Positions 82 to 4,533 of a DNA stretch of 34,559 nucleotides are shown here, piece after piece. The notes under the pieces were generated by a model that was given only the letters and a program-made list of their open reading frames with translations, was not told the DNA's origin and made no database searches. The stretch's first letter is position 1. Each line of letters begins with the position of its first letter. Position numbers and translations under genes: made by a program. Origin of the DNA: an uncultured Eubacterium sp. (GTDB taxonomy: Bacteria; Bacillota; Clostridia; Lachnospirales; Lachnospiraceae); contig CAKRGX010000016.1 in assembly GCA_934338065.1 (NCBI GenBank), positions 1 to 34,559 of the forward strand, written 5' to 3'.

Positions 82-615
82 ATGGTAGGTAAAAAAATCC
101 GGGCATACCGGGAATTCAGAGGATACAGTCAGATACAGTTAGCCGAGCTGTCCGGCATTAACGTAGGTACGATCAGAAAATATGAACTTGGAATCCGGAA
201 TCCAAAACCGGATCAGTTAGAAAAGATAGCAACTGCACTGGGATTAAATGTAAGTGTTTTTCTGGATTTTAATATTGAAACAGTCGGAGATGTACTCTCT
301 CTGTTGTTTTCTATTGATAATTCAGTGAACCTCTCACTTGCCGAGACACCTGAGCAGAAGATTTCACTGACTTTTGATAATCCTACAATGCAGGACTTTT
401 TCAGGAAATGGTGTCAATTTAAAAGTGTCTATGAAAAGGAAAAAGCTGAAATATTAGCTATTGAAGATGAAGATAAAAGACAGGAAGAACTGGATAAGCT
501 CAACGCTACCCAGGAAGAATGGAAACTGCGTGCTATGGGAACTACGATAGGTTGCCATACTATCGTTAAGAAGGGCACTGAAGGCAATGACATCAAGACA
601 TATGATCTGACTTAA
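82..615 (+). CDS. XRE-family helix-turn-helix transcriptional regulator
   Basis: This 177-residue protein has a Cro/C1-type helix-turn-helix in residues about 4-58 (IRAYREFRGYSQIQLAEL, then GTIRKYELG with PDQLEKIATALGL). That arrangement is classic for XRE DNA-binding domains. The rest (60-177) is acidic, contains a charged helix rich in E, K and D around 130-160, and matches no family I can name; it could be a dimerisation or sensing part. The ATG at 82 has a strong AAGGAGG (66-72) at good spacing. The gene stands alone: it is followed by a bidirectional terminator and faces the permuted tRNA-like RNA gene on the other strand. An inverted repeat over its -35 suggests it represses itself. Such regulators are common in mobile elements, but no phage or ICE gene is visible here. 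Confidence 0.85.
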   Translation: MVGKKIRAYREFRGYSQIQLAELSGINVGTIRKYELGIRNPKPDQLEKIATALGLNVSVFLDFNIETVGDVLSLLFSIDNSVNLSLAETPEQKISLTFDNPTMQDFFRKWCQFKSVYEKEKAEILAIEDEDKRQEELDKLNATQEEWKLRAMGTTIGCHTIVKKGTEGNDIKTYDLT

Positions 616-630
616 TTTTGTGCATAAGAA

Positions 631-659
631 AAAGAGCTCACGAAGAGCTCTTTATTTTT
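631..659. terminator. Bidirectional Rho-independent terminator
   Basis: Perfect 9-bp stem AAAGAGCTC (631-639) / GAGCTCTTT (645-653) with a 5-nt loop. The forward strand continues into TTTATTTTT and the reverse strand into TTTTTCTT, so it can end both the XRE transcript and the minus-strand tRNA-like RNA. Confidence 0.85.
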
Positions 660-872
660 GGTGGTCTGGGGGAATTGCTTATTATTCCATGCTACCATTA
701 CACCATATCGCCGCAAATACCCAGACCTACTAATAAGATTTCTTTTTTCATAATATCAATTCCTTTCTTGTAAATGCACTTTTCGATGTCATATACTATT
801 CCCGAAATCATAGAACTCAAAAGAATTCCTAATATGGTGGCGATATCTGGAATCGAACCAGAACCTATTGCT
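659..872 (-). ncRNA. Circularly permuted tRNA-like RNA gene (3' half upstream of 5' half)
   Basis: Read on the minus strand, the predicted transcript opens with a tRNA 3' half: T-arm TCTGG-TTCGATT-CCAGA (862-846), acceptor strand TATCGCC (845-839), discriminator A (838) and encoded CCA (837-835). After a 122-nt spacer comes a 5' half: acceptor strand GGCGATA (712-706), exactly complementary to TATCGCC; a D-arm-like TGGTGTAATGGTAGCAT (705-689); and an anticodon-arm-like hairpin GGAAT (688-684)/ATTCC (675-671). Its loop is 8 nt instead of 7, with U33 at 681 giving an AAG triplet. Joined in normal order the halves make a full cloverleaf opened in the variable loop. The spacer and tail add an 8-bp stem GGTCTGGG (727-720)/CCCAGACC (670-663) that encloses the 5' half and is followed by ACCA (662-659). 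A sigma-70 promoter lies just upstream and a terminator just downstream. Whether it is charged, or serves as a decoy, sensor or attenuator, is unknown. The alternative is a decayed remnant of tandem tRNAs. Confidence 0.6.
698..751 (-). CDS. Possible 17-residue peptide inside the permuted tRNA-like gene
   Basis: An ATG at 751 is preceded by GAAAGGA (767-761) nine bases upstream, a good ribosome binding site. The frame encodes MKKEILLVGLGICGDMV and stops at TAA (700-698) within the D-arm of the tRNA 5' half. Two lysines followed by a short hydrophobic stretch would suit a leader or small membrane-active peptide, but 17 codons can occur by chance. If translated, ribosomes would unwind the acceptor and D-arm strands, so translation and tRNA-like folding would exclude each other. 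No homologue is recognised. Confidence 0.3.
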   Translation of the reverse strand: MKKEILLVGLGICGDMV

Positions 873-878
873 AACTTA

Positions 879-908
879 ATTATAGTGGTAGTGTAGCATT
901 GATTTCAA
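879..908 (-). promoter_or_regulatory. Promoter of the permuted tRNA-like RNA
   Basis: Minus-strand -35 TTGAAA (908-903), 18-bp spacer, consensus -10 TATAAT (884-879). The expected start is near 872, just before the T-arm of the 3' half, which makes the tRNA-like RNA an independent transcript. The spacer, read on the plus strand, resembles the D-arm sequence (14 of 19 positions). Confidence 0.7.
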
Positions 909-933
909 ATTTGTCAATCAACTTTCAAAATTT

Positions 934-952
934 TGTTATCATTCTGTTATCA
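934..952 (+). repeat. Direct repeat of TGTTATCA
   Basis: Two copies of TGTTATCA at 934-941 and 945-952, 11 bp apart, lie in the gene-free stretch before the orphan terminator. Short direct repeats like this can be recombinase arm or core sites, but no integrase gene is in view. Confidence 0.3.
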
Positions 953-953
953 C

Positions 954-993
954 AAACGGTTGTCAGGACTCTCTCCCGGCAACCGTTTTTCTT
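954..993 (+). terminator. Orphan plus-strand Rho-independent terminator
   Basis: Stem AAACGGTTG (954-962) / CAACCGTTT (980-988) followed by TTTCTTT on the plus strand. No plus-strand gene precedes it after 659, so it ends either an unannotated short RNA starting in 860-950 or read-through from the XRE gene. Together with 1042-1071 it shields the str operon end. Confidence 0.6.
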
Positions 994-1041
994 TATCATT
1001 CGTTATTCTTTTCCGACTTATTTAACTTTTTTAAGCAACAG

Positions 1042-1071
1042 AAAAACCCCAGAAACACAAGGTTTCTGGGG
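1042..1071 (-). terminator. Terminator of the str operon (after tuf)
   Basis: Minus strand: 10-bp stem CCCCAGAAAC (1071-1062) / GTTTCTGGGG (1056-1047) followed by TTTTTC, about 60 bp past the tuf stop codon. Confidence 0.85.
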
Positions 1072-1128
1072 TATCTTACGTTTGGACACAACGTTATCTT
1101 GCGATAACAAATCTATATTCAGATTGTA

Positions 1129-2316
1129 TTACTCGATGATTGTAGCAACACGTCCTGATCCTACAGTACGTCCACCTTCACGGATAGCGAATGTAAGACC
1201 CTGATCCATAGCGATTGGGTGGATCAATTCGATAGTCATCTCTACGTTATCTCCAGGCATGCACATCTCTGTTCCCTCTGGTAACTGGATAACACCTGTT
1301 ACGTCAGTTGTACGGAAGTAGAACTGTGGACGGTAGTTACTGAAGAAAGGTTTATGACGTCCGCCTTCTTCCTTCTTCAATACATACACCTGTGCAGTAA
1401 ACTTTGTATGGCATGTCAATGAACCTGGCTTAGAAAGAACCTGACCTCTTTCGATATCAGTCTTCTGAATACCACGAAGAAGTACACCAGCGTTATCACC
1501 AGCCTGAGCCTCATCCAACTCTTTGTGGAACATCTCGATACCAGTTACAACAGACTTCTGAGTCTCTTCTTTAATACCAACGATTTCTACTTCATCATTC
1601 AAGTGAAGTGTACCAGCCTCTACACGTCCTGTAGCAACTGTACCACGACCTGTAATAGAGAATACATCCTCTACAGGCATAACGAATGGCTTATCTGTAT
1701 CACGCTGTGGATCTGGGATATATGCATCAACAGTATCCATAAGCTCCATAATCTTGTCGCCCCACTCGCTGCTTGGATCTTCCAAAGCTTTCAAAGCAGA
1801 ACCTTTGATGATTGGGCAATCTGTGAAGTCATACTCCTCAAGCTGCTCTGTTACTTCCATCTCTACAAGTTCGATCAGCTCATCATCGTCTACCATATCA
1901 CATTTGTTCAAGAATACTACGATATAAGGTACACCTACCTGACGGGAAAGAAGGATATGCTCTTTTGTCTGAGCCATAACACCGTCAGTAGCAGCTACTA
2001 CAAGAATAGCTCCATCCATCTGAGCAGCACCAGTGATCATGTTCTTAACGTAGTCAGCATGTCCTGGACAGTCAACGTGTGCGTAGTGTCTCTTCTCTGT
2101 CTCATACTCAACGTGAGCTGTAGAAATTGTGATACCACGTTCTCTTTCTTCTGGAGCCTTATCGATGTTCTCAAAATCAGTAGCTTCGTTACCAGATACT
2201 CTCTCAGCCAATACCTTTGTGATAGCAGCTGTCAATGTTGTTTTACCATGATCTACGTGACCAATAGTACCAATGTTACAATGTGGTTTAGTTCTAACAT
2301 ACTTTTCCTTAGCCAT
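1129..2316 (-). CDS. tuf: Elongation factor Tu
   Basis: EF-Tu is the cytoplasmic GTPase that carries aminoacyl-tRNA to the ribosomal A site. The 395-residue protein starts [27 protein letters not shown]. It has the P-loop GHVDHGKT, the switch [10 protein letters not shown] and the NKCD base-recognition motif, followed by the two beta-barrel domains ([32 protein letters not shown]) and the usual C-terminus. The upstream in-frame ATG at 2337 is rejected because GGAGG (2331-2327) sits correctly only for the ATG at 2316. It is the last gene of rpsL-rpsG-fusA-tuf and has its own strong promoter in the fusA-tuf gap, so it can be made in excess over EF-G. Length and motifs are fully typical. Confidence 0.99.
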
Positions 2317-2374
2317 TTCTAAACGTCCTCCTAACAATTTTCATTTTTAATAATTTTCTTTTACATATAGCCTA

Positions 2375-2403
2375 ATTATAGGTGATTGCTTATAAAAAAG
2401 CAA
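2375..2403 (-). promoter_or_regulatory. Internal promoter for tuf
   Basis: Minus-strand TTGCTT (2403-2398), 17-bp spacer, TATAAT (2380-2375), lying between the fusA stop and tuf. TTGCTT and the AAGCAA in the spacer can pair, so a weak hairpin overlaps the -35. It gives tuf transcription independent of the rpsL promoter. Confidence 0.75.
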
Positions 2404-2412
2404 GACCCAAAT

Positions 2413-4533
2413 TTACTGTCCATTTCTCTGTGCCAGGACTTTTTCCTGTACATTCTTCGGACACTTATCATATCTCTCAAAGAACATGGAGTAGTTACCG
2501 CGTCCCTGAGTAGATGAACGAAGTTCTGTTGAATATCCAAACATCTCTGCCAGTGGAACAAATGCGCGGACGATCTTACCACCACCGATATCATCCATAC
2601 CTTCAATCTGACCACGTTTTGCATTCAGACTTCCGATTACATCACCCATGTATTCTTCCGGCATTGTAACTTCAACCTTCATGATAGGCTCAAGCAGTAC
2701 AGCATCACCCTTCTTCATAGCTTCTTTGAAAGCCATAGAACCAGCAATGTGGAATGCCATTTCACTGGAATCGACTTCATGGTAAGAACCATCATAGCAG
2801 TTAGCGTGAATACCAAGTACCGGGAATCCAGCCAGAATACCTGCCTGAGCAGCTTCCTGAATACCTTCATCTACAGCAGGAATATATTCCTTAGGAATCG
2901 CACCACCAACTACAGTAGATTCAAATTCGTATGTGGACTCGCCATTCGGATCCATCGGTGTGAAGCGCACACGGCAGTGACCATACTGACCACGACCACC
3001 AGACTGCTTAGCATATTTGCTGTCAATCTCAACTTCTTTTGTAAATGTTTCTTTGTATGCAACCTGAGGAGCACCTACATTTGCTTCAACTTTAAATTCA
3101 CGAAGCAGACGGTCTACGATAACTTCCAAGTGAAGTTCGCCCATTCCGGCAATGATTGTCTGACCAGTTTCCTGATCTGTATGAGCACGGAATGTAGGAT
3201 CCTCTTCTGCCAGCTTAGCAAGAGCCTCACCCATCTTACCCTGATCATTCTTTGTCTTAGGCTCGATAGCCAGCTCAATAACCGGTTCAGGGAATTCCAT
3301 AGACTCAAGAATAACCGGATGCTTCTCATCACAGATAGTATCACCAGTTGTTGTTAATTTAAAACCAACAGCTGCGGCAATATCACCTGAGTACACTTTA
3401 TCAATTTCATTTCTCTTATTAGCATGCATCTGCACAATACGTCCTACACGCTCTTTCTTACCTTTTGTAGCATTCAATACATAAGAACCAGAGTTCATTG
3501 TACCAGAGTAAACACGGAAGAATGCTAATTTACCAACGAATGGATCGGCCATGATCTTAAATGCCAAAGCTGAGAATGGCTCATCATCAGAAGAACGACG
3601 AGTAACTTCATTTCCATCTTCGTCAATACCTGTAATATCAGGAATGTCTGTCGGTGCCGGCATATACTCAATAACACCATCAAGTAACTTCTGTACACCT
3701 TTATTCTTATAGGCAGAACCACAAAATACCGGAACAGCCTCGTTTGCGATTGTTCCTTTACGAAGAGCTTTCTTCATATCATCGATAGAAGGTACTTCAT
3801 CTTCGAGATACTGCATCATCAGATCATCATCGAGTTCACAAACCTTCTCAACAAGGTTGTCATGCCATTCCTGAGCAAGATCTTTCAGATCATCAGGAAT
3901 CTCTGTAATCTCGATATCCTCACCTTTGTCATCTTTATAATAATATGCTTCCATCTCAAACAGATCGATCAAACCGATGAAATCATCTTCTTTTCCAATC
4001 GGAATCTGAACAGGGATTGCATTTTTGCCCAGACGGTCAATAATCGTCTGAACAGACATGAAAAAGTCTGCACCCATTTTATCCATCTTGTTGATGAATG
4101 CCATACGAGGTACATTATAAGTGTCAGCCTGACGCCATACATTCTCTGACTGAGGCTCAACACCAGCTTTCGCATCAAACACACCTACAGCTCCGTCTAA
4201 CACACGCAGAGAACGCTCAACCTCTACAGTAAAGTCTACGTGTCCAGGAGTATCGATGATGTTGACACGATGCTCTAAAGCACCAGCCTTTGGTTTGTGA
4301 TGGTCTTCCAGTGTCCAGTGGCAGGTCGTAGCAGCAGAAGTAATGGTAATACCTCTTTCCTGTTCCTGCTCCATCCAGTCCATGGTAGAAGCGCCATCGT
4401 GAGTCTCACCAATTTTATAGTTAACACCGGTATAGTAAAGAATACGCTCTGTAAGCGTTGTCTTACCAGCATCAATATGAGCCATGATACCGATATTTCT
4501 GGTGCGTTCCAATGGATATTCTCTTCCAGCCAA
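2413..4533 (-). CDS. fusA: Elongation factor G
   Basis: EF-G is the GTPase that drives ribosomal translocation and, with RRF, ribosome recycling. The 706-residue protein begins with the G domain ([32 protein letters not shown]) and continues through domain II ([18 protein letters not shown]) and domains III-V ([24 protein letters not shown]). It ends with the family's [20 protein letters not shown] region. The start codon is TTG (4533-4531), with AGGAGG seven bases upstream and no better ATG nearby; the second residue, Ala, fits known EF-G N-termini. It lies between rpsG and tuf in the str operon. Nothing is missing, and no extra copy or FusB-type element is visible here. Confidence 0.98.

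Follow-up and report, generated by a model that had tools for sequence, protein, structure and literature searches.

Messenger RNAs (mRNAs) of type I toxins such as hok and fst fold back on themselves so that the 5′ end pairs with the 3′ end. In dicistroviruses, intergenic entry sites use a transfer RNA (tRNA)-like fold to start translation without a normal start codon. Circularly permuted tRNA genes, whose halves are inverted, are described from algae and Archaea, where they yield tRNAs (PMC3978253). Within the literature covered, permuted tRNA folds in bacteria are otherwise known from transfer-messenger RNA (tmRNA) only. Here, we describe an RNA element on the minus strand of contig CAKRGX010000016.1 from an uncultured Eubacterium sp. 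of the Lachnospiraceae; the whole stretch analysed, 34,559 nucleotides (nt) long, is referred to as the window. The element appears to play the same topological trick in an RNA of another kind, whose junction is traversed by a reading frame. Our tentative explanation, drawn from comparative sequence analysis, is that it is a structured small mRNA of mobile elements, about 250 nt long, that is closed by a permuted tRNA fold controlling a short peptide. The parts covered of a 2023 account of permuted natural RNAs (PMC10085705) hold nothing like the element, and the titles and abstract openings of the open-access PubMed Central literature hold no description of this RNA.

A conserved RNA with a permuted tRNA fold

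An initial annotation of the window had proposed a circularly permuted tRNA-like gene, and its T-arm, acceptor strands, CCA, spacer, D-arm, hairpin and terminator all lie where that annotation placed them (Table 1). Read on the minus strand from 877 to 659, the order is T-arm, acceptor 3′ strand, 122-nt spacer, acceptor 5′ strand, D-arm and hairpin, and both halves of the RNA terminate in CCACCA. Neither ARAGORN nor Rfam at gathering scores gives a match at the element, in keeping with the inverted order of its parts.

Nine relatives were found in nine genomes, eight with the full order and one degenerate (L041); a tenth is a remnant (L029). The nine relatives (L020, L021, L022, L023, L030, L031, L032, L039 and L041) and the window make up the ten aligned loci referred to below. 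The split order, whose loss from homologues the initial annotation had named as a refutation, is preserved in nine of them, and the 7-base-pair (bp) acceptor strands, which the initial annotation had seen to match in inverted order, pair in all ten. The elbow bases that fit both arms to tRNA (T-loop TTCGA and D-loop GG) are likewise kept in nine of the ten, L041 being the one that differs.

Pairs were counted in seven non-redundant loci, leaving out L021 and L023, which are almost identical to the window, and the degenerate L041. All 198 lettered cells of the T-stem, acceptor, P1, D-stem and hairpin hold standard pairs. P1, overlooked by the initial annotation, is an 8-bp helix (727–720 with 670–663) that flanks the D-half and is knotted with the acceptor. 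Both sides have changed in 10 of 29 pairs, compared with an average of 3.6 in shuffles (0/500 reach 10), and structures slid out of register pair in 33–46% of cells. The double-changed pairs comprise 4/7 in the acceptor, which bears out the compensatory changes looked for by the initial annotation, 2/5 in the T-stem, 2/8 in P1, 2/5 in the hairpin and 0/4 in the D-stem. The alignment was fitted to the T-stem, P1 and hairpin, the pairing of P1 being partly fitted since it is included in model R1 of the conserved RNA; the acceptor and D-stem lie outside that fit. For the hairpin, six loci have letters, the L039 hairpin being unalignable. When all ten loci are counted, 271 of 271 cells are paired and 12 pairs are double-changed, two of which, in P1, rest on doubtful L041 cells.

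The acceptor is GGCGATA/TATCGCC in six of the ten loci, GGCGGTA/TACCGCC in L020, GGTGATA/TATCACC in L031 and GGCGATA/TATTGCC in L041; L039 has GATGGTG/CACCATC, with four compensated positions within one locus. P1 takes the forms GGTCTGGG/CCCAGACC, GGTCTAGG/CCTAGACC or GGCCTAGG/CCTAGGCC; in L021 one of its pairs is G-U. When every pair of columns was scanned in nine rows (without L041), six runs emerged, among which the acceptor ranks first with four covarying pairs, followed by P1, the hairpin and the T-stem.

Pattern searches that left the acceptor free point the same way. A loose pattern of T-arm, CCA, 110–138 nt and D-arm matched once in the window and in none of 100 shuffles. The same pattern matched 19 loci in viral contigs, where ARAGORN places a tRNA at both ends in 14; none of the 19 has at least six of seven complementary acceptor positions (best, five). 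A narrower pattern matched four loci among genome contigs, all spanning 170 nt, in a Clostridiaceae bacterium, Anaerostipes sp. 992a, a Eubacteriales bacterium and a Lachnospiraceae bacterium; acceptor complementarity is 7/7 in the window and in all four. A chance likeness, or the deletion remnant of two tandem tRNAs envisaged by the initial annotation, is therefore scarcely credible: compensated changes occur in independent copies and would not arise in a remnant, none of the 19 control loci has such an acceptor, and no tRNA is present in eight tuf-end loci of relatives. On this comparative evidence, the presence of a permuted tRNA fold is near certain.

Two further pairings were tried and dropped. 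The alternative pairing H0 (GCAATA/TATTTGC) is 86.7% paired, and its covariation score is equalled by 55 of 500 shuffles; a loop-to-frame pairing (AATAAG/CTTATT) fits the window by eye and fails in L031, L032 and L039.

Table 1. Coordinates of the element, its parts and adjacent genes in the window.
Feature	Position	Strand	Remark
Conserved RNA, model R1 positions 1–219	659..877	-	263.4 bits; window among the model-building sequences
Probable promoter TTGACA-16-TACACT	890..917	-	by-eye line-up with L020–L023 and L030
Predicted transcript, start about 7 nt past the -10 box, end at the terminator	627..883	-	promoter and terminator positions
T-arm, stem TCTGG/CCAGA, loop TTCGATT	846..862	-	paired in 7/7 non-redundant loci
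Acceptor 3′ strand TATCGCC	839..845	-	pairs with 712–706 in 10/10 loci
A73 (838) and CCA (837–835)	835..838	-	A in 10/10 loci, CCA in 5/10
Spacer, 122 nt	713..834	-	122 nt in 7/10 loci
P1 5′ strand GGTCTGGG	720..727	-	paired in 7/7 non-redundant loci
Acceptor 5′ strand GGCGATA	706..712	-	pairing with 845–839
D-arm GTGTAATGGTAGCAT with G18 and G19, contains the stop codon	689..703	-	paired in 7/7
Hairpin at the anticodon position, GGAAT-AATAAGCA-ATTCC, 8-nt loop, no U33	671..688	-	
P1 3′ strand CCCAGACC, followed by ACCA (662–659)	663..670	-	
Intrinsic terminator stem, bidirectional, common to the RNA and the XRE gene	631..653	-	
Open frame, RNA 5′ end to TAA (700–698) inside the D-arm	698..877	-	
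Nine-codon core SIVSGLIYD, codons 21–29	814-788	-	coding signal
Codon 15 (TTA)	832-830	-	start position of HetE-N proteins
Ribosome-binding site AAGAAAGGA (769–761) and ATG (751–749)	749..769	-	
Internal frame of 17 amino acids, MKKEILLVGLGICGDMV	751-698	-	begins at the ATG at 751–749
XRE (HTH_3) regulator, convergent with the RNA	82..615	+	
tuf (EF-Tu)	1129..2337	-	3′ end is the putative integration site in relatives

The promoter proposed at the outset, TTGAAA-18-TATAAT, fares less well: its TATAAT (884–879) is absent from L020, L022 and L023, and TTGACA-16-TACACT is likelier. The boxes of the latter (917–890) match TTGA(C/T)x and TAxA(A/C)T in L020–L023 and L030 by eye, the -10 box being TATACT in L021 and L023. 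A consensus search found four promoter matches in comparison with 2.3 expected, with both candidate promoters among them; its sole antisense-promoter candidate is a weak plus-strand site at 768–797. L031 has no such promoter, and its RNA starts about 20 nt after a gene.

Comparison with tRNA and tmRNA

The element shares with tRNA the acceptor, T-arm and D-arm, T54, T55, C56, A58, G18 and G19 in nine of ten loci (not L041), and discriminator A in all ten. The linear 5′-to-3′ order of the acceptor strands is lacking, being inverted in every aligned locus. The hairpin described initially as anticodon-like has a loop of 7 or 8 nt (8 nt in the window) and, by eye, no U33. CCA follows the acceptor only in the window and L020–L023 (5/10 loci), and a free 3′ end there would need processing. 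When the sequences were un-permuted in silico, with CCA and short flanks added, ARAGORN called a tRNA in eight of ten; in native order it called none. Those eight calls would favour a working tRNA put together from permuted halves in the manner of red algae and some Archaea. Such a tRNA is nevertheless very unlikely: the anticodon is undefined in seven of the eight calls, U33 is missing, the L039 hairpin does not resemble an anticodon arm, CCA is present in half of the loci and bacteria are not known to have a tRNA splicing endonuclease. The proposal of a permuted tRNA gene thus holds for a conserved, permuted tRNA-like RNA with its own terminator, and not for a tRNA in the strict sense. Like the algal and archaeal genes, the element has inverted halves and a cloverleaf that is restored on joining; unlike them, it has no usable anticodon, does not keep CCA and carries a frame in the junction.

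Permuted tmRNA is likewise bacterial, and it shares with the element a layout in which the T-arm, acceptor 3′ strand and CCA are followed by a linker, the acceptor 5′ strand and the D region. In contrast to permuted tmRNA, the element has a canonical D-stem, a P1 knot and no tag region in the D-side piece, and its reading frame sits in the linker rather than in the D-side piece. The third acceptor pair (column pair 37–181) is C-G in eight loci and U-A in two, unlike that of tmRNA, which is described as keeping a G-U pair there for alanine identity (PMC3985003). The permuted tmRNA family RF04321 matches the window T-arm and acceptor weakly (18.9 bits, gathering score 47, E 0.057; model positions 36–93 of 213), and at gathering scores it has no match in L030, L031, L032 or L039. 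A permissive Rfam search of positions 600–960 gave ten matches, all far under cut-off; apart from RF04321, the best E-value (0.015) is that of SCARNA7, which lies across the promoter region. In the window, L030, L031, L032 and L039, only ordinary tRNA or tmRNA genes reach the Rfam 15 cut-offs.

By analogy with permuted tmRNA, ribonuclease (RNase) P and RNase Z might excise the spacer, leaving two halves that act in trans as a mimic, decoy or sensor. The order of parts, the weak RF04321 match, the CCACCA at both half ends in the window and the elbow bases kept in 9/10 loci speak for such a two-piece RNA. Against it, CCA is found in 5/10 loci, part of the spacer has a coding signal (see below), and loss of the spacer would discard half of the conserved P1. 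We consider it an improbable, though not negligible, explanation. The initial suggestion of a two-piece or circular RNA, taken as one with a disposable spacer, is weakened by the coding signal and by the P1 5′ strand at the spacer end; the spacer is not empty.

A reading frame threaded through the spacer

The frame that runs from the RNA 5′ end into the D-arm carries, between the T-half and the ribosome-binding site, a core motif (S/C/I)xxSGxxYD with silent variation. Differences within codons 21–29 are distributed 67:13:130 over codon positions 1, 2 and 3 (eight sequences, kinship ignored; p 0.0013 by permutation), in a core that was picked after inspection of the signal; without L041 the ratio is 43:6:98. 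Spacer lengths outside the 122-nt majority are 125, 128 and 110 nt, every difference being a multiple of three. Downstream, the GGA of the ribosome-binding site and the ATG are retained in nine of ten loci (not L041), and the tail from this internal ATG has 16–18 residues. In L041 the frame ends in TGA after the acceptor strand, and there is also a TAG at the RNA 5′ end. Among 274 candidates, 62 predicted proteins match the frame (56 of the 62 were inspected). Their predicted starts are not evidence of the true start, because several have translated promoter sequence as their N-terminus.

The frame might be a secondary passenger of a trans-acting structured RNA, either a small RNA or a protein-binding tRNA mimic directed at, for example, RNase P, EF-Tu or a tRNA-attacking phage enzyme. 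Selection at the RNA level is strong, the elbow features are kept, the coding signal is confined to nine codons, and genes of mobile elements or conflict systems lie near some relatives, all as such an RNA would have it. The codon-level signal itself, the frame-preserving lengths and the ribosome-binding site with ATG in 9/10 loci argue the other way, and we regard this as a possible but doubtful alternative, second to an mRNA.

Resemblance of the frame to HetE-N and GapS6a

The start of the frame weakly resembles the N-terminus of HetE-N and GapS6a proteins. Frame product P0006 matches HetE-N (PF20701) at 26.1 bits (cut-off 25, E 1.1e-5) over residues 17–46, spanning profile positions 2–31 of 102 only. 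HetE-N is the sole Pfam family matched by nine of ten tested frames, eight of those nine under cut-off; the tenth, P0037, has a weak MASE9 match. GapS6a (NF047935) is matched by five of the ten frames, at best with 23.8 bits vs a cut-off of 90. Searches of PDB by sequence gave no match, nor did PADLOC for four peptides or PHROGs for seven.

Across 397 genomes of the G002 (Anaerostipes) family, HetE-N matches occur in four, two of them above cut-off. Three of the proteins involved (L072, L073 and L074) have frames of 134, 321 and 328 amino acids. The listed frame of L073 starts MDFIISSIVSGIIWDVIKG; in L072 an internal ATG MEELTTVILSGITWDAIKKG, 10 residues into the listed frame, coincides with profile position 1, and in L074 an internal ATG MNKFIVSAILSGIVWDVIKG, 5 residues in, was taken as the start. 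HetE-N profile position 1 falls on the ATG of the L073 protein and, in L031, on an ATG that is codon 15, and the start-to-motif distance is equal in L031 and L073. The likeness lies in the motif xSIVSGIIW/YDxIK at the N-terminus, which stands equally far from the start in these two loci. Only about 30 residues are shared with HetE-N and GapS6a proteins; the frame of the element then continues into an RNA-dictated tail. We also noted that the motif heads otherwise differing proteins in L072–L074, and that the L073 protein lies, by eye, downstream of an ATPase and RloB-like pair; as judged from these sequences, conflict proteins in general may use the motif as a module.

Codon 15 is ATG in L031, TTG in L039 (one inserted codon left out), GTA in L041, ATA in L020, L022, L030 and L032, and TTA in the window, L021 and L023. 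This invites comparison with the dicistrovirus entry sites, in which a tRNA-like fold likewise immediately precedes a frame without a standard start; those sites differ from the element in fold, and the likeness is of arrangement alone. If the element were such a translation starter, its fold would set the ribosome at codon 15, and no normal start codon would be needed. Codon 15 is the HetE-N start point and lies 6 nt past the acceptor strand in the window, a standard start is found there in two of ten loci, and by eye no Shine-Dalgarno sequence lies upstream of it. On the other side, ATA, TTA and GTA may be weak or unused starts, the internal ATG has a good ribosome-binding site, and by eye the hairpin loop does not covary with codon 15. 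A translation starter of this kind seems improbable to us. We rate equally low the more elaborate idea of a bacterial RNA class whose permuted tRNA fold works as a translation device on the enclosed frame: the tRNA-like domain, tied by P1, would seat the ribosome on a codon, not necessarily AUG, and, closing over the stop codon, would couple start, termination and RNA processing of a defence-related peptide in mobile elements.

A candidate mRNA closed by its own tRNA fold

Returning to a small mRNA with a permuted tRNA fold, the 5′ leader (T-arm and acceptor 3′ strand) and the 3′ end (acceptor 5′ strand and D-arm) would hold the two ends of the message together. To reach the stop codon, a ribosome would have to open the acceptor and the D-arm. 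RNase P, if it acts on the fold, would cleave at 713/712, ahead of the stop codon, and so remove it. Fold and translation would thus be mutually exclusive. The fold could lock the message and mark it for processing, so that hardly any of a possibly harmful or defensive peptide is made, and the peptide might be released when the fold is disturbed or left unprocessed, for example by phage attack or translation stress. Type I toxin mRNAs resemble the element in their short peptide, their association with mobile elements and their paired 5′ and 3′ ends; in the element, by contrast, the putative lock is a tRNA fold. With the frame running through the junction, one sequence is under tRNA constraint and, in part, under protein constraint. 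If this explanation is true, RNase P, the T-loop modifying enzymes and the ribosome share a substrate in which the two ends of a message are joined. The element raises the question of whether tRNA folds act as translation locks or starters in bacteria, and 250 bp of DNA suffice to address it.

Several observations, besides the way in which the nine-codon core was picked, weigh against this explanation. The coding signal is weak or absent in the T-half (90:77:44), codons 13–20 (111:83:100), codons 30–35 (91:85:118), the ribosome-binding-site region (53:48:44) and the tail after the ATG (65:33:68), and over the wider stretch of codons 13–29 it falls to 178:96:230 (p 0.009). The conserved tail GLGxCGDMV overlaps P1, the acceptor and the D-arm, and is explicable by RNA sequence alone. 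One predicted protein (P0046) continues through the D-arm with no stop. Upstream of the internal ATG a standard start codon is lacking, except that codon 15 is ATG in one and TTG in another of the ten loci. The hydropathy of the peptide is moderate (best 19-residue means 1.33 and 1.40), and no HetE-N match over cut-off is found in the ten carrier genomes, the remnant carrier G031 included; two weaker matches in carrier genomes are the frame of the element itself. On the RNA side, further pair types number 13 vs 13.8 in shuffles, with no excess. The column-pair scan also gives two runs outside the model (columns 29–34/172–177 and 172–175/195–198), with two covarying pairs each. The free energy of the window RNA differs little from that of shuffles (z -0.79, or z -2.01 including the terminator) with a folding program unable to form the acceptor/P1 knot. 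Finally, L041 (1501–1682) keeps the frame and a 7-bp acceptor and has lost the D-arm and P1; it may represent either decay or an ancestral form.

Distribution and genomic setting

The distribution of the element is patchy, since few genomes of each sample carry it; the genome samples overlap one another. BLAST of 397 genomes in the G002 family matched nine at E <= 1e-4, of which four full elements (G002, G266, G100 and G287) and one remnant (G031) were accepted. The other four matches (G065, G088, G165 and G267) are short and were not accepted, since they extend over no more than the ribosome-binding-site region; with model R1, one of them (L035) scores 16.9 bits (E 0.019), and the other three are not listed at E <= 1. 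A second short match in G001 (L028) scores 11.7 bits (E 0.19) with the same model. An acceptor-free covariance model found the element in 4 of 392 genomes at the order level, one of them new (G709), and in 2 of 291 at the class level, one of them new and divergent (G896). Genus samples were positive in 1/5, 1/2, 1/41 and 2/12 genomes, each count including its centre genome, and model R2 in the family of G896 matched 1 of 130, the centre genome alone. The remnant (L029 1482–1610; L029/L040, G031), left out of the alignments, adjoins a truncated XRE gene and keeps the D-half and the end of the frame, the T-half having been replaced.

The phage and plasmid collections gave no DNA match to the element and no protein match to P0017, and the D-half pattern has no match in viral contigs. 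A peptide pattern matched ten stretches of viral contigs, none of which was confirmed. By eye, two large viral contigs (L002 993–1300 and L015 6404–6700) hold a tRNA-like gene with a long insert in the anticodon region and the ends GGAGTCG...GACTCCACCA. Also by eye, a D-half tRNA fragment at L001 1360–1480 stands right before what looks like a complete tRNA sequence. ARAGORN is silent at all three.

By raw count, genes of mobile elements lie near five of the nine relatives (L021, L023, L039, L030 and L031). In L021 (stretch L045) the RNA stands beside an XRE gene, a tyrosine integrase and a VapE-type gene. All three recur at L023 (stretch L047), where the integrase was recognised by eye, and L039 (stretch L051) has an integrase and a VapE-type gene, both by eye; the integrases of L047 and L051 look nearly identical to that of L045. 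L030 (stretch L048) adjoins an HD-CE/HATPase gene, with a relaxase at 3.3 kb; in this stretch (236–3418, G266) the RNA stands between the HD-CE/HATPase protein and one containing CxxC, possibly a defence pair. L031 (stretch L049) lies about 640 nt downstream of tmRNA and tRNA-Pro, with a D5/DUF5906 gene at 3.5 kb. L032 (stretch L050) is about 140 nt from tRNA-Leu, L041 (stretch L052) is near the PADLOC candidate PDC-S01, and L020 (stretch L044) has an XRE gene in its vicinity, besides a HicB-like protein and a transposase fragment that were recognised by eye.

In the window the order of genes is tuf-fusA-rpsG-rpsL, which, together with the nearest relatives, suggests Clostridia. At 74–91% identity, the final 55 nt of tuf recur in G002, G709, G1039 and G1042 at a distance of 8–41 kb within one contig, and in G004 on a separate contig; in G002 the repeat extends into the tuf terminator. 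Of the 13 genomes searched for the repeat, seven have the tuf end alone and two have nothing. Judging by these repeats, integrative elements appear to use the tuf end repeatedly for attachment, and the RNA would lie just inside an element bounded by the tuf 3′ end; in the window, the integrase would lie past the left end. Among the loci compared (window 1129–2337 and L056–L069), repeats of the tuf end also occur in some genomes in which the RNA was not seen; in G1039 their distances from tuf are about 20 and 41 kb.

The XRE regulator, which the initial annotation thought might belong to the same unit, is a frequent neighbour and not an obligatory one. It is adjacent in the window, L021, L022, L023, L039 (shortened, 112 amino acids) and the remnant L029; it is absent from the open reading frame lists around L020, L030, L031, L032 and L041, and the XRE gene near L020, about 1.1 kb away, is a different one.

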